The notes under the pieces were generated by a model, which was given only the letters and a program-made list of their open reading frames with translations, did not search any database and was not told where the DNA came from. From Nitrosospira multiformis (lineage in GTDB: Bacteria; Pseudomonadota; Gammaproteobacteria; Burkholderiales; Nitrosomonadaceae): a stretch of 64,000 nt of DNA. The translations under genes and the position numbers were made by a program. Below, in pieces: positions 53,173 through 62,572 of this stretch; the first letter of the stretch is position 1; every line of letters begins with the position of its first letter. The stretch is taken from positions 62,001-126,000 of the forward strand of contig NZ_QAOK01000006.1 in NCBI RefSeq assembly GCF_003050865.1. Reading direction: 5' to 3'.

Positions 53173-55146
53173 TCAGTTTTTTCCCAGCTTCTGCTGTTCC
53201 TCTATCACAGCCAGAACGCGCTGCGCTGATCGCAGCGAGCCTTCAATAAATCCCTGGTAGTCAGAAAACGCTTCTCCGCAAACGTGCAGGTTGTTTTGCC
53301 CGGCTTCCTGCTCCTCTTGTTCGAGAGAAAATGCCTCGAGAAACTCGATATGCTCCCGGGACTTTACACCCGGACGCCACCCGTGCGCCGCGGCACCGAA
53401 AGGCTCCTTCCCCCAGTCGCGCATACCACAGGCGAGAAGGCGGCCTGTGGTAAAGTCATGGTGCTCATAATCCCTGGCAAACTGCACGAAACGCTGCCAC
53501 AGGCGAGTCGATCCGGGCTTGATTTCGATAATCGAACCGCACATCGGAGAGGGTTTTTTCTCCAGGAACCAGACCCTGGCGGCATCCTGATAGTCGACCT
53601 GTGGCCCCTCCGGTTGCTCGGGACCTTTGGAATTATTGCCGGATTCGCTTCTGAGATAATCGGACCAGAATGTGATTGCCGGGCGGTCGGTATAAATCAT
53701 GATCAACCCTTTTGTCCGGTCCCTGCTTTTCACATACAGCAGCTCGCGGGTTGGTATGTCGGATGCATAGCGGTTGAGAGACCGGTTGTCTTCCCACCAG
53801 GGCTTCTCGATGACAAAAAAACATTTCAGCAGCGGAAGGCAAGCGACCGCATTGAATGCTTCGTGAAGATTGCCTTTCGGACGCTCCCCATTCCATGACA
53901 TTTCCTCGAGCGGACGCTTCGGCAGGGCAAAAATGACTCTTCGTGCGCACACAAGCTCGACTTCATCCTGTTTCTGCACGGTAAGGGCAACCAGCGCATT
54001 ATCCCGTCTTTCTACGCTCACCACCCTTGCGCCTTTCGCGATTTTCAGACGAGGAGATTCGTGACTGCTCTGGTGCTTCCGCAAGACTTCCAGGAGGTTC
54101 CAGATTATCCTGCTCATCCCTCCGCGTATGCCCCGAAGCGAACCCGTGCTTCGAATTGCCCTGAGCCAGAAGATAATCCACTCGGCGGCATTCAGATTTT
54201 CGTGAACAAAGTGATAGTAACTCCCCCAATCCCTGATCTTGACCACCGCATAATGGCTCAAGACATCGCTGAGGACGTTCCAGAATCCCAAGTCCCATAA
54301 CGGCTGGTCCCTGAACCGCGCGTGCTCCCGGATCGTTACGAAGTCAGGATCGGTAAGATACTGTATCCATTCGAGCAGCTCTCCCTTCCAGTAATGGCGA
54401 TAAAAGAACTGCGCGCTGTGCAGCTTTCTCCATTGTTCATTGGCGGCATCCGTACACCAGGGATTCGAAGCCGAGCCGTCGAATTTCGGGCCGTGGACGA
54501 GCTCGAAGATGCGCCTGAGAGCGAGTATCATCAGGTCAAAAGGAGTTTTCTGCTGCGCTTCCTCCTCCTGAAGCGTGAATCGAGGCGCCATCGGATCTTC
54601 GGAGGTGTACGAAGAGAACGGCACGAGGTCATCCAGGCTTTCTTCCTCCCCGGGGCCAGGCTCCCTGATTCCAAGATCGTCGAGCAATCCCTGCAATAAA
54701 ATCTGGTCCCGCGGCTCGATTCTCATGGGCCCGAATTCCGCCCGGAAGTATTCGATATCGGTCAGCTTTTCGACATCGTTGCCATCCACATTCCTGAATG
54801 ATTTTTCTGTCGGACCTCTGAATGGAGACTGTTTACCCGTTTGCGGGTCAGGGGGAGCAAGGCAACCATTATCGATGTTCCAGTTACACGGGTCCCATGT
54901 ATCTTCAAAACCGATCTTCTTTCCATTTTCCTCACTGCTTCTCAGCAGGGACCACGTTTCGATGCGCCCACCAAACCGGTCGGAAGCTTCCAGAAGGAAA
55001 ATGCTCCTGATATCGAGCGAGCCGTCCCGGACTTTCTTGATAAGCTCGTGGCAGCAATAGAGCCCGGCAATACCGCCGCCGACAATTACCAGATCATATA
55101 TTTCCGCTTTCTGCGTATGCTGCGTATGAGATGTGCTGCCCGGCAT
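53173..55146 (-). CDS. Flavin-containing amine-oxidase-like protein
   Basis: A 657-residue FAD enzyme. The N-terminal dinucleotide fold has VIVGGGIAGLYCCHELIKK and FLLEASDRFGGRIETW. The C-terminal FAD-contact region has LHVCGEAFSDYQGFIEGSL, typical of monoamine and L-amino-acid oxidases. Several insertions make it longer than the usual ~450-500 residues. The substrate cannot be deduced. It has no signal peptide. Confidence 0.85.
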   Translation of the reverse strand: MPGSTSHTQHTQKAEIYDLVIVGGGIAGLYCCHELIKKVRDGSLDIRSIFLLEASDRFGGRIETWSLLRSSEENGKKIGFEDTWDPCNWNIDNGCLAPPDPQTGKQSPFRGPTEKSFRNVDGNDVEKLTDIEYFRAEFGPMRIEPRDQILLQGLLDDLGIREPGPGEEESLDDLVPFSSYTSEDPMAPRFTLQEEEAQQKTPFDLMILALRRIFELVHGPKFDGSASNPWCTDAANEQWRKLHSAQFFYRHYWKGELLEWIQYLTDPDFVTIREHARFRDQPLWDLGFWNVLSDVLSHYAVVKIRDWGSYYHFVHENLNAAEWIIFWLRAIRSTGSLRGIRGGMSRIIWNLLEVLRKHQSSHESPRLKIAKGARVVSVERRDNALVALTVQKQDEVELVCARRVIFALPKRPLEEMSWNGERPKGNLHEAFNAVACLPLLKCFFVIEKPWWEDNRSLNRYASDIPTRELLYVKSRDRTKGLIMIYTDRPAITFWSDYLRSESGNNSKGPEQPEGPQVDYQDAARVWFLEKKPSPMCGSIIEIKPGSTRLWQRFVQFARDYEHHDFTTGRLLACGMRDWGKEPFGAAAHGWRPGVKSREHIEFLEAFSLEQEEQEAGQNNLHVCGEAFSDYQGFIEGSLRSAQRVLAVIEEQQKLGKN

Positions 55147-55561: not shown

Positions 55562-58500
55562 ATGTCTCGACTTTTCGACCAGATGCAACGCCCTTCTTCC
55601 TTGGGGACAGGTGCGGTTGAAGCTGAGCCTCTTGAACTAGTGCGCCTCGTTCATGTGGCCGTGGAGGGTCGCGCAAGACTTGAAGTCCAGGGCTTGTACC
55701 GATGCGACCGGGTCAGGCACAAGCTCGAGTCCGCGCTGCGCAAGCATGCTGCGATAAGGGAAGCCTCCGCCAACGTCCTCACCGGCCGAGTGCTGATCAT
55801 TTTTGATCCGGCACGCGACCTTGAAGAAATAAAAACCTGGTTGGAGCAACTGCTGCTGGATGCCGGGCAGGAAATCATTCCTGAGAACTCGGTAGACGAT
55901 GGCCGTTCTTTGCGTTCCTCCGGACGTCCTATTTCTCCCGTCATTTCTTCTGATTTCAATTCAGTTCTTCCCCAGAAGGGGGAAAACTGGCATGTGCTAT
56001 CCAGCGAGATTGTGCTGGCCTCGCTTGAAACCTCTAAAGAGCTCGGCCTCAGCCAGGCTTCCGCGGAGCGGAAGCTTGGCCATTTCGGTGTCAATAGCCT
56101 ACCGGAGACGCTACCCCGTTCCGGCCTGAGTATTTTTCTGGGGCAGTTTAAAAGCCTGCCTGTGGCTTTACTCGGTGTGTCCGCCGTCCTTTCCGCGGCA
56201 ACTGGAGGATTGGTCGATGCGGCGGTGATCCTCGGAGTAGTTTTGATCAACGCGGGTGCGGGCTACGTTGCCGAGTCTCAATCGGAGCGAACGATCAATG
56301 CGCTCGGACACGTGGCCGAGCAGAATGCAGTGGTCATTCGCGATGCTCAGCTTCGGGAGGTGGCTGCTGAGTCTCTGGTGCCGGGCGACATCCTGGTCCT
56401 TACGCCGGGGACTCGAGTAGCTGCCGATAGCAGGGTGCTCGAATCGCGCAATCTGATGGTGGACGAGTCCATGCTTACCGGAGAAAGCCTTCCGGTGGCA
56501 AAAATGGTGAACCGGCTGGACAAGCAGAACGTCTCCCTTGCGGACCGACTTAACATGGTATACATGGGTACGGTGGTAACGGGTGGCAGCGGCCTGGCAG
56601 TAGTAGTCTCGACCGGACGATATACCGAGATCGGCACTATTCAATCGCTGGTAGGTGAAACCCGGCCTCCGGAGACACCCATGCAGCGCCAGCTCTCCAT
56701 CCTTGGGAATCAGATGGTGTTGCTATCCCTGAGTATCTGTGGGGCAATGTTTCTCATCGGGCTGGTCCGGGGTTACGGCTGGCTGCAAATGTTGAAATCC
56801 TCTATTTCCCTTGCCGTAGCCGCAGTCCCGGAGGGACTGCCTACCGTCGCCACCACTACCCTTGCGCTGGGTATCCGGACAATGAGCCGTCACAAAGTGT
56901 TGGTGCGCCGTCTCGATGCAGTGGAAACCTTGGGCGCAGTACAGGTAATCTGCCTCGACAAAACCGGAACGCTCACTCTCAACCGTATGTCCGTCCTGGC
57001 CCTGCACAGCGGAGGACGTCGTATTACAGTGGACAAGGATGTGTTTTACGATGCGGGCGTAAGAACCGATCCCTATCAGAACGATGAATTGTTGCGGCTC
57101 ATCCATGCAGCCGTTCTTTGCAACGAGGTGGAACTGAACGGTGAGAGAGGCAACTACGTACTCAAGGGTTCCGCAACAGAAGGCGCGCTGGTGCACCTTG
57201 CGCTGGCGGCAGGCGTTTCAGTTGATGCGCTTCGCCGGTGCTATCCCAGAGAGCAAGTGGAATACCGCACCGAAACGCGGAACTATATGAGCACGACCCA
57301 TAGCGTGCGAGGGGGCGGGAAGCTCGTGGCCGTCAAGGGTAATCCGGTCGAGGTGCTGGAAATGTGCCGATGGTGGTTGAAGGACGGCGCACGCCTGCCT
57401 CTCACGGAGGCGGAGCGGACAGCCATACTCATGGAAAATGACCGCATGGCCGCAGAAGCGCTGCGTGTGCTGGGATTTGCTTACACCGAACCGAAGCAAA
57501 CCGATCAATCTTCAGCGGATGAACTCATCTGGCTGGGGATGACGGGAATGGCCGATCCCCTGCGACAGGGGATGAAGGAACTTATCGCCTTGTTTCACCA
57601 GGCCGGGATAGACACGGTAATGATAACCGGTGATCAGAGCGGCACTGCGTATGCGATAGGGAAGGAACTTGGGCTATCCAGCGGCACCGAACTCGACATT
57701 CTTGATTCTACCCGGCTTGATCAACTCGATGCAGAGGTCCTGGCTGGGCTAGCCCAGAAGGTCAACATCTTCTCCCGCGTCAGCCCGGCCAACAAACTGC
57801 AAATCGTGCAGGCACTGCAGCGCAGCGGCAAGGTCGCCGCGATGACGGGCGACGGCATCAATGACGGGCCCGCCCTCAAGGCCGCGGATATTGGCGTCGC
57901 TATGGGCGACACCGGCACGGAGGTGGCGCGCAACGTGGCCGACGTTATACTGGAAGACGATAACCTCGGAACCATGATTGTGGCCGTCTCGGAAGGCAGG
58001 ACGATTTACAACAATATTCGCAAATCGATTCATTTCCTTACCGCAACCAACCTGTCCGAGATCATGCTGATGCTGGGGTCTATAGGTACAGGGCTGGGCA
58101 CCCCGCTCACTACCATCCAGTTGCTGTGGATCAACCTGATAACCGATATCTTCCCCGGACTGGCGCTTGCTGTTGAGCCCCCCGAGCCCGATGTTCTGCA
58201 GCGGCCACCGCGAGATCCTCGCGAACCGATTGTAGGTCCAGCAGACTTCAAGCGCTACGGTCTGGAATCTCTGACAATGAGCGCAGGCTCAATGGCCAGC
58301 TACGGCTACGCAATGGCGCGTTATGGCGGAGGGCCGAAGGCCAGCACGGTCGCCTTCATGACCCTGACAATGGGGCAACTGCTTCACGCATATAGTTGCC
58401 GTTCTGACCATATCAGCATATTCAGCCACGAGACGCTCCGCTCCAATCGCTATCTCGACACGGCGATCGGTGGAACAGCCTTGCTCCAATGGGCCACGGT

Positions 58501-58684
58501 GCTGGTGCCAGGCGTCCGCAATCTGCTTGGTAACACCCCGATAGGCCCGCTTGATGTAGCGGTGATAGGCGCGGGCTCTGTGCTGCCCTTTTTCCTGAAT
58601 GAAGCAACCAAAGGCGCCACCTTCAAAGGCAAGCGGGGTCAAGACCTGTTATCTCTGCCACCACCGTCGAAGGAGTATGGATGA
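55562..58684 (+). CDS. P2-type cation-transporting ATPase with N-terminal HMA2-like domain
   Basis: A 1040-residue ATPase. Residues ~25-100 form an HMA2-like ferredoxin fold (RLVHVAVEGRARLEV, ANVLTGRVLIIFDPARDLEE) with no CxxC metal motif. A P2-ATPase core then follows: cation_ATPase_N, TGES at 306-309, PEGLP in M4, the phosphorylated Asp466 in DKTGTLT, and GDGINDGPAL at about 763. M5/M6 contain NLSEIML and LLWINLITDIFPGLALAVEPPE, resembling Ca2+/Mg2+-type pumps rather than heavy-metal P1B pumps. Its TGA overlaps the metK-like ATG (ATGA). The start ATG has only a weak AAGG site, so it is somewhat uncertain. Confidence 0.9.
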   Translation: MSRLFDQMQRPSSLGTGAVEAEPLELVRLVHVAVEGRARLEVQGLYRCDRVRHKLESALRKHAAIREASANVLTGRVLIIFDPARDLEEIKTWLEQLLLDAGQEIIPENSVDDGRSLRSSGRPISPVISSDFNSVLPQKGENWHVLSSEIVLASLETSKELGLSQASAERKLGHFGVNSLPETLPRSGLSIFLGQFKSLPVALLGVSAVLSAATGGLVDAAVILGVVLINAGAGYVAESQSERTINALGHVAEQNAVVIRDAQLREVAAESLVPGDILVLTPGTRVAADSRVLESRNLMVDESMLTGESLPVAKMVNRLDKQNVSLADRLNMVYMGTVVTGGSGLAVVVSTGRYTEIGTIQSLVGETRPPETPMQRQLSILGNQMVLLSLSICGAMFLIGLVRGYGWLQMLKSSISLAVAAVPEGLPTVATTTLALGIRTMSRHKVLVRRLDAVETLGAVQVICLDKTGTLTLNRMSVLALHSGGRRITVDKDVFYDAGVRTDPYQNDELLRLIHAAVLCNEVELNGERGNYVLKGSATEGALVHLALAAGVSVDALRRCYPREQVEYRTETRNYMSTTHSVRGGGKLVAVKGNPVEVLEMCRWWLKDGARLPLTEAERTAILMENDRMAAEALRVLGFAYTEPKQTDQSSADELIWLGMTGMADPLRQGMKELIALFHQAGIDTVMITGDQSGTAYAIGKELGLSSGTELDILDSTRLDQLDAEVLAGLAQKVNIFSRVSPANKLQIVQALQRSGKVAAMTGDGINDGPALKAADIGVAMGDTGTEVARNVADVILEDDNLGTMIVAVSEGRTIYNNIRKSIHFLTATNLSEIMLMLGSIGTGLGTPLTTIQLLWINLITDIFPGLALAVEPPEPDVLQRPPRDPREPIVGPADFKRYGLESLTMSAGSMASYGYAMARYGGGPKASTVAFMTLTMGQLLHAYSCRSDHISIFSHETLRSNRYLDTAIGGTALLQWATVLVPGVRNLLGNTPIGPLDVAVIGAGSVLPFFLNEATKGATFKGKRGQDLLSLPPPSKEYG

Positions 58685-59871
58685 TGAAACAGAATTTCAT
58701 GTTCACCTCCGAATCCGTGACTGACGGGCATCCGGATAAACTTTGCGATCAGGTGAGCGACGCGCTGGTCGACCGCTTTTTGCAACAGGACCCCTTTTCG
58801 AAGGTAATCGCGGAGTGCGCTGTATCCACAGGAATACTTTTTATCGCAGCGCGCTTCGCTTCGTCGGCTTCTATCGACATCCCGGAGGTCGCGCGCCAGG
58901 TTATACGCCAGATCGGCTACGAGCAGGCGGATTTCAATGCAAGAGATTGTACGGTCATGACCAGCTTGTCGGAATTACCATCACTCCCTCATCCGCATAT
59001 TGATGAGAGGGAGATGGATGAGGAGGAACTGGAGGCCGTAACTGCCAAAAACCAGGCGAATGTATTCGGTTTTGCCTGCAATCAAAGCGCGGCCTTTATG
59101 CCGCTACCCATCTCGCTTTCGCATAAACTGGCGCGTCGGCTCACGGCCGCACGTTTCCAGAAGCAGATTCCCTATCTTGCGCCCGATGGAAAAACGCAGG
59201 TAGGGGTGGAATATCGCGAAGGCAGACCGTATCGCATCCATTCCATCACCATCGTTGCCACTCAGGAGAAGACTGCCATGCGCGGCGTCGGCCCGCTGCG
59301 GGATGATCTCAACGCACATGTGATTGAGCCGGTTTTCGCGGCGGAGACGCTGCGGCCCGACTCCCGCACCCATATTTTCATCAATCCCGAGGGGTTGGTT
59401 GCCGACGGAGGCCCCTCGCTACACTCCGGGTTGACGGGTCGCAAGAACGCGGTGGATACATACGGTGAATATTCCCGGCATTCGGAGTCCGCGCTTTCCG
59501 GTAAGGATCCCTCCCGTATCGACCGGGTGGGCGCCTACGCAGCGCGCTACGCGGCCAAGAACGTGATCGCCGCGGGCCTTGCGCAGGCGTGCGAGGTACA
59601 CCTGGCATATTCAATAGGAATATCGAGGCCGGTAAGCGTGCAGGTGGATACTTTCGGTACAGGGAGCATTCCAGATACCGAAATAACGGCCCGCATTCTT
59701 GACCAGTTTGATTTCCGTCCGGCCGGAATCATTCGCGCTTTTAATTTACGCTACCAGCCTCAATTATTTCGCGGGGTTTTTTACCGCAGGCTCGCGGTTT
59801 ATGGTCAGGTGGGACGGATGGATATCGGATTGCCGTGGGAGAGCACGGACAAGGCTGCATTGCTGCGTTAG
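58681..59871 (+). CDS. Divergent MetK homologue (S-adenosylmethionine synthetase fold)
   Basis: A 396-residue MetK-fold protein, coupled to the ATPase gene by a 4-nt overlap. It keeps GHPDK (16-20), GLTGRK (250-255) and SGKDP (273-277). Several canonical motifs are altered: GAGDQG reads TAKNQA (121-126), GGPMGDxG reads GGPSLHSG (243-250, His248 in place of the Asp) and SGKDPSK ends in Arg279. The Asp residues replaced contact methionine and magnesium in E. coli MetK. It may be catalytically changed or inactive, and it is unlikely to be the cell's main SAM synthetase. Its neighbourhood suggests a dedicated role in the ATPase/HMA2 module. Confidence 0.85.
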   Translation: MMKQNFMFTSESVTDGHPDKLCDQVSDALVDRFLQQDPFSKVIAECAVSTGILFIAARFASSASIDIPEVARQVIRQIGYEQADFNARDCTVMTSLSELPSLPHPHIDEREMDEEELEAVTAKNQANVFGFACNQSAAFMPLPISLSHKLARRLTAARFQKQIPYLAPDGKTQVGVEYREGRPYRIHSITIVATQEKTAMRGVGPLRDDLNAHVIEPVFAAETLRPDSRTHIFINPEGLVADGGPSLHSGLTGRKNAVDTYGEYSRHSESALSGKDPSRIDRVGAYAARYAAKNVIAAGLAQACEVHLAYSIGISRPVSVQVDTFGTGSIPDTEITARILDQFDFRPAGIIRAFNLRYQPQLFRGVFYRRLAVYGQVGRMDIGLPWESTDKAALLR

Positions 59872-59916
59872 CCCGATATCGCGGTAGGCTGCCGCGGCGA
59901 GCAGTACCTGTTCGCC

Positions 59917-60273
59917 TCAGATCAGTGCAGCGACCAGAGCGACGGCTGAGCGCTCGACGGCGGTTTCGACGAGTTTCGTCACGAAAATATCTGCCACCTT
60001 CTGTAGCGAATGGGCGGCATACGGTTGATTCAGAACATCCACATTCCGGATATATCCCAGGTTGCGCAGGGAATCAAGAATCGCGGCAGAGCTTGTCAGA
60101 CTTGGGTCGTATTTGATTACCACACTGCCCGTGACGATGCTGGTTTCGGCTTGAAGAAGGCCGTGCATTCCTTCCAGGTAGCACCTCAATTGCCGGACGC
60201 GCACTTCATCCTTTTTCAATACGGGGATATTGACGCGCAGACGGCCGGGAACATGGTGAATATAATTAGCCAT
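59917..60273 (-). CDS. Small HMA2-like domain protein
   Basis: A 118-residue protein with GGAG eight bases before the ATG. Residues 1-75 match an HMA2-type fold: MANYIHHVPGRLRVNIPVLK, a helix, then TSIVTGSVVIKYDP and AAILDSLRNLGYI. It lacks the CxxC of metal-binding HMA domains. A hydrophobic tail (VETAVERSAVALVAALI) could anchor it. It is the last of four minus-strand genes facing the ATPase/MetK pair. Confidence 0.82.
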   Translation of the reverse strand: MANYIHHVPGRLRVNIPVLKKDEVRVRQLRCYLEGMHGLLQAETSIVTGSVVIKYDPSLTSSAAILDSLRNLGYIRNVDVLNQPYAAHSLQKVADIFVTKLVETAVERSAVALVAALI

Positions 60274-60598
60274 GATTGGTTCTCCATTCGGTCATTTTCC
60301 TGATGATAGCTATTTAACCAGCGTTTTGTTACAGCTTTATGAAACGGTTCAGGCCCAGGAACCGGAGATGGAGATAAAAGAAAGGAAAAAGAGAAGGCGG
60401 TGGAGAACATTCATCCCTGCGGCGGTAATCGATCGCTCACCAGGGATGAGAGGAAGGACGGGAGCTAAGGCTACTGGAGCATTTGCCCTAAAACAGAATC
60501 TGAATCCTGCGGGCTGATCCAAGCGTCAACACCCGGCACGGGTTTGAGCTTGAGCTATGCCCTTTAGCGCTTTATCAGGGCCTTAGCCCCGCCAAATG
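60274..60598. other. 325-bp gap between two module genes
   Basis: No convincing gene. A small ACCCG/CGGGT hairpin lies near 60526-60538. The small HMA2 gene may therefore have its own promoter rather than depend on the repeat-protein gene. Confidence 0.35.
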
Positions 60599-61402
60599 TT
60601 ATACCGGCGGTGGAGGAGGAATGCGATCCTCTGGGGGAGTGCGACCTGCAGGGGGAACATTGTCTTCGGCGCGGTATGACTTGGGTATAGCCGCGTTTGC
60701 CACATCCTTCACTCCTCCTACGACACTGAGGAGAATGTCGCGCACGCTTGTGACCGCGGTCGTGCCGATGTCGCCTATCCCCCCAGCGGCCGCGTTTACG
60801 GTCGCCCTGACTGCTTCTACGACATTGCCTCCAGTCTCCCTCGTTCCCTCGGCCACGCCGTCCACTGCACGCTTGGCAACCAGCAATGTGTCACCACCAG
60901 CGTCAGCAGTACTACGGACCGCGGCCTTTACGGTTTCTGTGGCCGCCGTGATGACGTCGCCGCCCACATCGGACACGCCCATTACCACGCCCTTGGCAAC
61001 GCTTTTCGTGGAAAGCACCAACCCGGTCCCCACATCTTCAGTGGCGGCAAGCGCGCCCTTGACAACATCCCTTGTTATATCGACTGCTTCCGTACCGACC
61101 GCCCCTGTCGCTCTCAACGTATTGGATACCGTATTGCGCACCAGGCTCACGATGTCGGATTCAATTCCGTCGATGCCTCTCAAGCTGCTGGCAATGCCTG
61201 TTTTTACGGTATGGCCAGCGGCTCCTATGGTGCGGTCAGCATCCGTACGATAAGGAGGTGTCGTACTCACGTATCCTTCATCTTCCGGGCGTGTTTCGTC
61301 GTGAGCGTATGCTTCTTCCTTCGGCGTTTCTATATCGGCCCGCTTTTTTTCCTCGGGGCGCGTCTTTCCCCCTGCGTGCCTGTCTGATCTCGGGGCATTC
61401 AT
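60599..61402 (-). CDS. Protein of eight tandem 22-residue amphipathic repeats
   Basis: A 267-residue protein with GAGGAGG well placed before the ATG. Residues 1-58 are charged and disordered-looking. Residues 59-234 divide into eight consecutive blocks of exactly 22 residues, best seen from 103: GTEAVDITRDVVKGALAATE, GTGLVLSTKSVAKGVVMGVS, GGDVITAATETVKAAVRSTA and so on, each starting G(G/T) and ending in a D/E-hydrophobic pair. The tail is Pro-rich (IPPPPPV). A 22-residue (two 11-mer) period resembles apolipoprotein-, synuclein- and perilipin-like membrane- or droplet-coating helices and LEA proteins. I recognise no named family. It lies inside the HMA2/DUF5132 gene set. Confidence 0.8.
   Translation of the reverse strand: MNAPRSDRHAGGKTRPEEKKRADIETPKEEAYAHDETRPEDEGYVSTTPPYRTDADRTIGAAGHTVKTGIASSLRGIDGIESDIVSLVRNTVSNTLRATGAVGTEAVDITRDVVKGALAATEDVGTGLVLSTKSVAKGVVMGVSDVGGDVITAATETVKAAVRSTADAGGDTLLVAKRAVDGVAEGTRETGGNVVEAVRATVNAAAGGIGDIGTTAVTSVRDILLSVVGGVKDVANAAIPKSYRAEDNVPPAGRTPPEDRIPPPPPV
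60701..61228 (-). repeat. Eight 66-bp (22-codon) protein-coding repeats
   Basis: The DNA encoding residues 59-234 of the repeat protein. The period is exact at 22 residues with no gaps, but nucleotide identity between units is modest. This points to old duplication with selection on the pattern rather than recent expansion. Confidence 0.75.
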
Positions 61403-61598
61403 TTCGATTCCTCCTCGTATAGTTACGATTTCCGTGCTATGACGATGAAAGTGCTTCTCTCATTTTGCTGCTTTCTACCGCTTCAGTGCAGAGTTCCCTG
61501 GTTTGGACTCTTGCAACCCCTTGATTCACTAAGAAATTTTGCTACAGATTTTTTGTTTTGCGAGATTTTCGGAAATCATCATCCAATCATTTCCAAAT

Positions 61599-62105
61599 CT
61601 AAGATTCTTCGGGTAATTTGGTTTCAATGAGGGAATGTTCGGGGTTGTCGCCGTTCGTCCCCGGAAAAACGCAGTACGCATACCAGAATGCCGCTATCGC
61701 CGGGATCGCTATATTGCCCTTTATTACCTGCAGGACGCCCATGCTCATCATTGCCAGGAATATCAGCCGCCGGATATCTGGTCTTTTTTCCGATTTCGTA
61801 TATGACTTATGTTCGGCGGCACTGGCGATTGAAGAGTGGACTGGCGTGGGTACTGACGTTTCATTCTTTCCGAGCTGGAACAAATCGTGCTCAGCGATAT
61901 GGCTCCAAAGAACGGAATCCTCCGCGGTATGACTGATAAGCGCCATACCAGTCCGCGGATCCGTCGTTACCGTTCCAACCCCGGGGCACTCCGCCAATCC
62001 TTTTTCCAGCGCCGCGAAGTACGCGGCATCGCCGCGCCTTGCGTCGATCTTTATCCGCTTCCTGCCCGGCAGAGAGTGGGCCACTCGCGCAAGTGGCGCC
62101 ATCAT
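61599..62105 (-). CDS. HMA2-like protein with membrane segments
   Basis: A 168-residue protein whose ATG overlaps the DUF5132 stop (ATGA). Residues ~5-65 form an HMA2-like fold (ARVAHSLPGRKRIKID, CPGVGTVTTDPRTGMALISH) again without CxxC. A linker leads to hydrophobic stretches at about 112-148 (LIFLAMMSMGVLQVIKG, IAIPAIAAFWYAYCVFPG). The start LPGR is shared with the small HMA2 protein (VPGR). It is probably inner-membrane bound with the HMA2 domain in the cytoplasm. Confidence 0.8.
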   Translation of the reverse strand: MMAPLARVAHSLPGRKRIKIDARRGDAAYFAALEKGLAECPGVGTVTTDPRTGMALISHTAEDSVLWSHIAEHDLFQLGKNETSVPTPVHSSIASAAEHKSYTKSEKRPDIRRLIFLAMMSMGVLQVIKGNIAIPAIAAFWYAYCVFPGTNGDNPEHSLIETKLPEES

Positions 62106-62572
62106 TCCCCCTTGGTTGGCGGTCGACCTTGCGCCCCTTCATCGCGCTGGCCTTCACTCGCCTGCGCCCTCGTCGGTGCAGGTGGGCTTTGTGACATCTT
62201 GATGGCGTCGCTTGGCTGAACCGCGGCTTTAGTGGCTGAATTTTGTCTGGTGTCAGGATCCGACTGGGGTTGTGCAGACGGTGTCCCGGTTTTCCCTTGC
62301 GCGCCAGCAGCCTGAGTTGCGGAGGCAGCTATCGCCGCGCCTCCCGCCGGCCCAGTCTCCATCTCCGACTTGACCTCTGCCACGAGGTCATCCACCGTTT
62401 CGCTCAATTCGGCAAATGATTCACGTCCTTTCTCATACAGAAGGACGCTACCCTTGATAGCGGCCTTGGTAGCGGGCCTGATGAGCCGGAGCAGCACTGG
62501 CGCGAGCAGTGTCGCCCCCACGCCAGCCGCCAAGCCCGTGATCAGGTTGCTCTTGAAGTTTTCCGATGCCAT
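62102..62572 (-). CDS. DUF5132 domain protein
   Basis: A 156-residue protein. Residues 1-75 match DUF5132: NLITGLAAGVGATLLAPVLL (a hydrophobic, Gly-zippered segment), RPATKAAIKGSVLLYEKGRE and a helical acidic stretch. The C-terminal half is Ala/Pro/Gln-rich and likely disordered. DUF5132 proteins often sit beside HMA2-domain proteins; that association is from memory, and the function is unknown. It is the first gene of the minus-strand set, with a promoter candidate 35-60 bp upstream. Confidence 0.82.
   Translation of the reverse strand: MASENFKSNLITGLAAGVGATLLAPVLLRLIRPATKAAIKGSVLLYEKGRESFAELSETVDDLVAEVKSEMETGPAGGAAIAASATQAAGAQGKTGTPSAQPQSDPDTRQNSATKAAVQPSDAIKMSQSPPAPTRAQASEGQRDEGAQGRPPTKGE

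Follow-up and report, generated by a model that had tools for sequence, protein, structure and literature searches.

Few metabolic enzymes are as well conserved as methionine adenosyltransferase (MAT; MetK), the S-adenosylmethionine (SAM) synthetase. In the Escherichia coli enzyme, D238 and E55 bind the amino group of methionine and Q98 and K269 bind its carboxyl group (PMC3853416, PMC1282579), while archaeal MATs bind methionine through other residues (PMC3853416). The residue 98 treated in PMC9202080, located at a subunit interface, follows a numbering that counts the initial Met, and that account was left aside here. In the PacL/CtpC effluxosomes of mycobacteria, a P-type ATPase is encoded beside a small protein in which a charged cytoplasmic helix accompanies a single transmembrane (TM) segment (PMC9374683, PMC13043812). 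Here, we describe a six-gene locus of Nitrosospira multiformis in a stretch of 64,000 nucleotides (nt), hereafter the window (contig NZ_QAOK01000006.1, positions 62,001 to 126,000 of the forward strand), in which a P2A-type ATPase is joined to a MetK paralogue, MetK2, with a replaced methionine site, and in which four minus-strand genes encode a DUF5132 protein, two proteins with an HMA2 domain (HMA2tm and HMA2s), and a repeat protein (Rep22). With moderate confidence, based on comparison of sequences, we read the locus as encoding a membrane platform round a Ca2+/Mn2+-type P2A pump, whose ATP-binding partner MetK2 would no longer make SAM.

The center of the locus is formed by two plus-strand genes that overlap by 4 nt. 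The first (55562-58684) encodes an HMA2-P2A-type ATPase of 1040 residues, a predicted Ca2+/Mn2+-type pump with matches to the Pfam families E1-E2_ATPase and Cation_ATPase_C. The second (58681-59871) encodes MetK2, a methionine adenosyltransferase paralogue of 396 residues that contains all three Pfam S-AdoMet synthetase domains and scores 357.8 bits against the NCBIfam metK model (TIGR01034), with its curated cut-off of 309.4 bits. An ordinary MetK (615 bits) is encoded on another contig of the source genome (G000, 3.29 Mb; G numbers denote genomes and L numbers the DNA stretches examined), and a separate ordinary MetK of at least 506 bits was found in 25/25 named genomes tested. In a quick maximum-likelihood tree, 117 distinct MetK2 and 53 ordinary MetK sequences formed two clades with a support of 100. 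Rows of the tree are labeled Pseudomonadota, Cyanobacteriota, Nitrospirota, Thermodesulfobacteriota, and Planctomycetota; Myxococcota is the label of a few metagenome-assembled genomes of Deltaproteobacteria. Because the Nitrosospira MetK2 nests among Nitrospirota and Deltaproteobacteria-type rows, the tree suggests horizontal transfer of the gene. Two genomes, those of Fischerella thermalis and Chlorogloeopsis fritschii (G496, stretch L106, and G507, stretch L152), have, in addition to an ordinary MetK, two copies that score in the MetK2 range (about 404-416 and 385-386 bits).

The two clades differ most plainly in the methionine site. None of the four methionine contacts (E55, Q98, D238, and K269) is kept in 110 of the 114 MetK2 sequences with all of these positions visible, and one is kept in the other 4, whereas 51/53 ordinary MetK sequences keep all four (D238, K269, and Q98 in 53/53; E55 in 51/53). 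D238 is replaced by H and K269 by R in 117/117 MetK2 sequences, position 55 holds R in most of the 114 visible rows (98), with H (13), Q (2), and V (1) in the others, and Q98 is kept in 4 only, being mostly replaced by L. On the side of the site that handles ATP, triphosphate, Mg2+, and K+, H14, D16, and E42 are kept in all visible rows, and all or nearly all of the 117 rows keep D163 (115), R244 (115), K245 (117), K265 (117), and D271 (114); the adenine-stacking F230 is kept in 58/117. Two acidic contacts have become mostly basic, and the ligand bound where the methionine amino group would lie may therefore be anionic. The first-pass annotation of this DNA had supposed a SAM- or ATP-binding role for the MetK-like protein; the ATP part of that proposal fits the kept residues, but binding of methionine or SAM does not, because the four methionine contacts are replaced.

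MetK2 could nevertheless be a working second SAM synthetase that supplies SAM under stress and shares its regulation with the neighboring pump. It passes the curated metK cut-off, most of its ATP-side residues are kept, and the archaeal MATs, which use other residues for methionine (PMC3853416), mean that the loss of contacts is no proof of lost activity. However, the uniform exchange of D238 and K269, the loss of E55 in 114/114 visible rows, the near absence of Q98, and the presence of an ordinary MetK in all 25 genomes argue against this explanation, which we consider quite unlikely. We propose instead that MetK2, given the exchange of its methionine pocket, no longer makes SAM. As the curated model names it a SAM synthetase, metabolic models would credit its carriers with a second, probably false, source of SAM.

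A DNA pattern for a stretch typical of MetK2 was run over a collection of 84,980 genomes and returned at least 119 stretches; counts are lower bounds. The pattern required [LV]FG[FY]ACxQ[ST] and missed MetK2 forms differing there; E55, Q98, D118, D238, F262, and K269 lie outside it. Each sequence was assigned to MetK2 or ordinary MetK according to its BLAST scores against three references (two MetK2, one ordinary), and among the matches listed (119), to which the following locus counts refer, 114 were MetK2-like and 5 ordinary. An ATPase lies at most 600 nt upstream on the same strand in 98/114 MetK2 loci and within 2 kb in one more; twelve of the remaining 15 have less than 800 nt of upstream sequence. 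When at least 1.5 kb of upstream sequence is present, the ATPase is adjacent in 80/84 and within 2 kb in one. Pairwise identities of MetK2 and the ATPase correlate (r = 0.86 over 63 loci), as shared descent would also produce. The scan stretches were at most 8 kb long and were cut regardless of genes, and partners are therefore under-counted: DUF5132 was seen near 31 of the 114 MetK2 genes, a separate HMA2 protein near 41, Rep22 near 18, and any of these near 53. Upstream of the ATPase, at least one partner occurs in 19 of the 41 loci with at least 1.5 kb of sequence there, and DUF5132 in 17 of them. Some loci have all genes on one strand in the order DUF5132, HMA2tm, Rep22, ATPase, MetK2 (e.g., L087, L091, L114, L191 (Nitrospirota), L156 (Brocadia), L150, and L200). 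The HMA2-ATPase and MetK2 are the most constant unit, DUF5132 and HMA2tm are frequent, and some lineages add Rep22 and HMA2s.

Within Nitrosospira, MetK2 was detected at E < 1e-200 in 11/23 genomes, including the source genome, and in 0/18 other relatives; matches to ordinary MetK reach at best E 4.7e-97. Rep22 occurs in the same 11 genomes and in none of the remaining 30 of the 41 genomes searched. All six genes share order and orientation in the 11/11 Nitrosospira genomes with MetK2, with an MgtE-type gene sitting among them in some (L113). The Rep22 frame contains stops in G003 and G012, and HMA2s is in two pieces in G012. The ratio of nonsynonymous to synonymous substitution rates of MetK2 is 0.064-0.106 over six comparisons, so MetK2 is under purifying selection. 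In a sample of 398 genomes of the phylum, matches to MetK2 below 1e-100 were found, besides the source, in G056 (51% identity), where the ATPase-MetK2 pair faces HMA2tm and DUF5132, and in G082 (45%), where no partner gene lies within the stretch examined; DUF5132 exceeds its cut-off in 2/398 (G000 and G056), and G394, at 24.1 bits, falls short of it. G056 belongs to a different order of the phylum, in which MetK2 is present in 5/61 genomes and a four-gene core without Rep22 in 4/4 examined (G056, G436, G441, and G442), the fifth (G437) lying at a contig end and being left out of this count. In G436, other genes separate MetK2 from HMA2tm, and by eye a restriction-modification-like island lies between them (L083:10266-12964).

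These distributions bear on whether the six genes, which the first-pass annotation had grouped as one candidate system, are neighbors by chance or passive hitch-hiking. Among close relatives, flanking genes too are retained nearby, an amine-oxidase-like gene in 6/11 and a TopoIB gene in 4/11 Nitrosospira stretches. However, the linkage persists across phyla and in differing gene orders while the flanking genes change, and no partner was seen at any control locus of ordinary MetK (0/53; mean 4.3 kb). Close relatives are over-represented in this control set, of which 20 members came from the first search, 28 from MetK2-bearing genomes, and 5 from the pattern scan. We therefore regard a chance grouping as extremely improbable. 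The co-occurrence check suggested with the first-pass annotation links the ATPase-MetK2 pair far beyond the genus; for the DUF5132/HMA2/repeat set, co-occurrence extends beyond the genus in part, with Rep22 present in only some loci. A tblastn search of plasmid records with MetK2 gave 167 matching records, all with a best place below 60% identity, and in the three inspected (H1, H10, and H13 of 40 listed) no P-ATPase is annotated within 6 kb.

The best solved relatives of the ATPase are the calcium pump ATP2C1 (481 bits), Listeria lmo0841, and SERCA. Among 69 ATPases compared (68 loci and the window; DKTGT was a selection criterion and is hence uninformative), the PEGLP motif of M4 is kept in 69/69, TGES in 68/68 where visible, and the N and D of M6 in the six commonest forms (58/69). 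By this likeness, the pumped ion would be Ca2+ or Mn2+. Some P-type ATPases move polyamines, and a pump so tightly coupled to a transferase-like protein could export an organic cation, such as an adenosylated product of MetK2, rather than a metal ion. Yet the pump groups with Ca2+ pumps and has the motifs just listed, and organic-cation export appears very unlikely. At the N-terminus of the window ATPase, the HMA_2 match (26.1 bits) is under the Pfam cut-off of 30 bits, while a family-built model finds an N-terminal HMA2 domain in 55/57 ATPases with a visible N-terminus.

On the minus strand, a DUF5132 protein of 156 residues (62102-62572) has a Gly-rich hydrophobic N-terminal segment, a charged helix, and a long, disordered-looking tail, and its gene overlaps by 4 nt that of HMA2tm (61599-62105; 168 residues), in which an HMA2 domain is followed by a predicted membrane hairpin. 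Rep22 (60599-61402; 267 residues) and HMA2s (59917-60273; 118 residues), a small HMA2 protein that looks soluble and whose C-terminal end is hydrophobic, complete the set. According to the list of open reading frames, all six frames and both overlaps are present at the coordinates first given for them, and Pfam and NCBIfam matches bear out the original P2-type ATPase, MetK homologue, and DUF5132 assignments. The call of HMA2 domains in three proteins holds for the two small proteins, which exceed the HMA_2 (PF19991) cut-off (HMA2s, 34.4 bits; HMA2tm, 37.7 bits), but falls below threshold for the ATPase N-terminus. As had been noticed earlier, none of the three window domains contains CxxC; this motif occurs in 1/125 related HMA2 domains, among which the arginines of GRxR are kept in 98 and 99%. 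These domains presumably fit the CoBaHMA family, whose HMA fold likewise lacks CxxC and has conserved basic residues. In the structure model of HMA2tm, block means of the predicted local distance difference test (pLDDT) are 93-98 over residues 1-80, and the predicted TM hairpin is formed by helices at 111-128 and 134-146; a Foldseek search with this model lists HMA-fold proteins (2xmw, 1osd), none at E <= 0.001, with LuxS at rank 1.

The window DUF5132 protein scores 34.5 bits against the Pfam family (cut-off 25), and the family model is matched by 22/22 relatives, in which G17, K40, E58, D62, E66, and E70 are invariant. It contains no His and has no C-terminal His-rich metal motif. Homology of DUF5132 to PacL was considered and dropped, as Pfam gives no sign of it.

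Rep22 has no Pfam family above cut-off. Its eight 22-residue units, in register, were correctly recognized at first sight: identity at lag 22 is 0.27, a value reached by 0/2000 shuffles at any lag from 5 to 44. The hydrophobic moment peaks at 98.2 degrees, which corresponds to 3 turns per 11 residues, in 16/17 sequences and at 98.4 degrees in one, and that of the window protein is 0.37, compared with a shuffle maximum of 0.22; by its periodicity, Rep22 is an 11/3 amphipathic helix. All 17 sequences compared share a core of 178 residues, and relatives are 45-84% identical to the window protein, with one at 25%. Homology to phasin or senescence proteins was dropped, the only matches being weak Phasin ones in 6/17 members (best E 0.046).

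A coat-like repeat of this kind invites the explanation that the set builds a cation-storing membrane compartment, acidocalcisome-like or mineral-storing, which Rep22 coats and the ATPase fills while MetK2 acts on ATP or polyphosphate. The 11/3 amphipathic repeat, the Ca-type pump, the triphosphate-side residues kept in MetK2, and the weak phasin-like matches of Rep22 would all suit such a compartment. Rep22, however, was seen at 18/114 MetK2 loci only, within the stretches examined, and the accessible part of the literature on intracellular carbonates names no such genes; we consider this explanation unlikely. A link to calcyanin and intracellular carbonate was likewise set aside, since that literature, as far as it was available, gives no MetK or HMA link.

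The surroundings of other copies vary. Four cyanobacterial loci (L093, L110, L129, and L172) have no ATPase upstream of MetK2 and share an upstream gene family on the opposite strand, a PAPS reductase in the one member checked (L093); in L093, L129, and L172, a short DUF5132 gene lies just downstream of MetK2, with a more distant P-ATPase beyond it. Nine loci (e.g., L087:6012-7258) share a gene family downstream of MetK2, of which the one member checked (L087) encodes a CorA-type transporter, and in eight of these nine the next family is DUF3562 in the one checked; in five loci, a downstream family is MgtE in the two checked (L096 and L113). A cyanobacterial protein with two HMA2 domains (L139:1862-2662) adjoins two DUF5132 genes. 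The source genome has a second locus on contig C3 (L239:6105-7273 and L239:7377-7700) with a DUF5132 paralogue (68% identical) and a shorter Rep22 paralogue without the middle repeats; a DUF3562 gene lies beside it on the opposite strand, and there is no ATPase or MetK2 within the 14 kb examined. In the window itself, the amine-oxidase-like flavoprotein gene lies at 53173-55146, its product having a weak, sub-threshold VioA match (57 vs 600 bits), and an Rfam scan of the window found a single tRNA and no other RNA match.

In the platform reading that we favor, the HMA2 domains of the pump and the small proteins, the one-segment DUF5132 protein, and the amphipathic Rep22 would organize a P2A-type divalent-cation pump on a membrane, an assembly and joint action that we infer. 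MetK2 would be the cytosolic partner, its ATP, triphosphate, Mg2+, and K+ side kept and its methionine pocket exchanged for basic residues, and it would (i) sense ATP-Mg and regulate the pump or (ii) let ATP react with an anionic acceptor. The action at a membrane supposed in the first-pass annotation draws support from three features: a predicted TM hairpin in HMA2tm, a hydrophobic segment in DUF5132, and the 11/3 amphipathic repeat of Rep22.

Several observations weigh against the platform reading. Three cyanobacterial MetK2 loci with long upstream sequence (L093, L110, and L129) have no adjacent ATPase, and 22/41 loci with sufficient sequence show no DUF5132, HMA2 protein, or Rep22 upstream of the ATPase. 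The ATPase scores 614.1 bits on the curated PMR1-type model, below its cut-off of 798.3, and Mg2+ may be the ion, given the CorA- and MgtE-type genes near some loci. In MetK2, K165 is kept in 95/117 sequences and lost in 22/117, and D118 is kept in 27/117. DUF1490 (PacL) and DUF6110 are absent from the 20 Pfam families listed for the 22 DUF5132 members at E <= 5, and the model of Rep22 is helical but of low confidence (mean pLDDT 58.5).

A stronger version of the platform, which we think rather unlikely, would be a new bacterial cation organelle or membrane micro-domain, present in at least five phyla, in which an ATP reaction of a neofunctionalized MetK2 drives or gates the Ca2+/Mn2+ P2A pump; that reaction might be adenosyl transfer to, or triphosphate release beside, an anionic ligand held by R55/H238/R269. 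In either version, nearly all sampled members of a MetK clade have exchanged the methionine pocket, and the clade is tied to a calcium-type pump, in carriers that include nitrifiers, cyanobacteria, Nitrospirota, Thermodesulfobacteriota, and an anammox Brocadia, which may point to new ATP chemistry or regulation in cation homeostasis.

No description of this system was found in the open-licence papers searched. MetK2 resembles MetK as a full-length, three-domain member with most ATP-side residues kept but belongs to a separate clade with H238, R269, mostly R55, and mostly L98; no counterpart of this part was found, and its role seems undescribed. The pump has its best solved relatives among the P2A Ca2+ pumps PMR1/SPCA and LMCA1, with which it shares PEGLP, but it differs in the N-terminal HMA2 domain, the score below the PMR1-type cut-off, and the MetK2 partner. 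In layout, with a hydrophobic segment followed by a charged helix, DUF5132 resembles PacL of the PacL/CtpC effluxosomes; its gene lies beside a P-type ATPase in the window and in 17/41 loci, and a scaffolded membrane platform is proposed for both arrangements. However, the ATPase here is P2A and not P1B, DUF5132 lacks a DUF1490/DUF6110 match at E <= 5 and, in the window protein, the His-rich metal motif, and the HMA2 proteins, Rep22, and MetK2 are extra. Similar in layout are HMA2-ATPase clusters without MetK2 (L260:3145-7426 and L261:2205-6365), in which an HMA2-ATPase of another class likewise has two more HMA2 genes and genes for short, Gly-rich, TM-like proteins beside it; that ATPase is shorter and only distantly similar to ours (identity 24-28% in L260; in L261, at most 33%, and that over a short piece). 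Among the five MetK2-less HMA2-ATPase stretches examined, all without MetK2 and Rep22, three have CPC, as in P1B pumps. L260 and L261 are possibly a sister platform, and, since HMA2-ATPases without MetK2 exist, the platform proposed here looks like a variant of a known arrangement.

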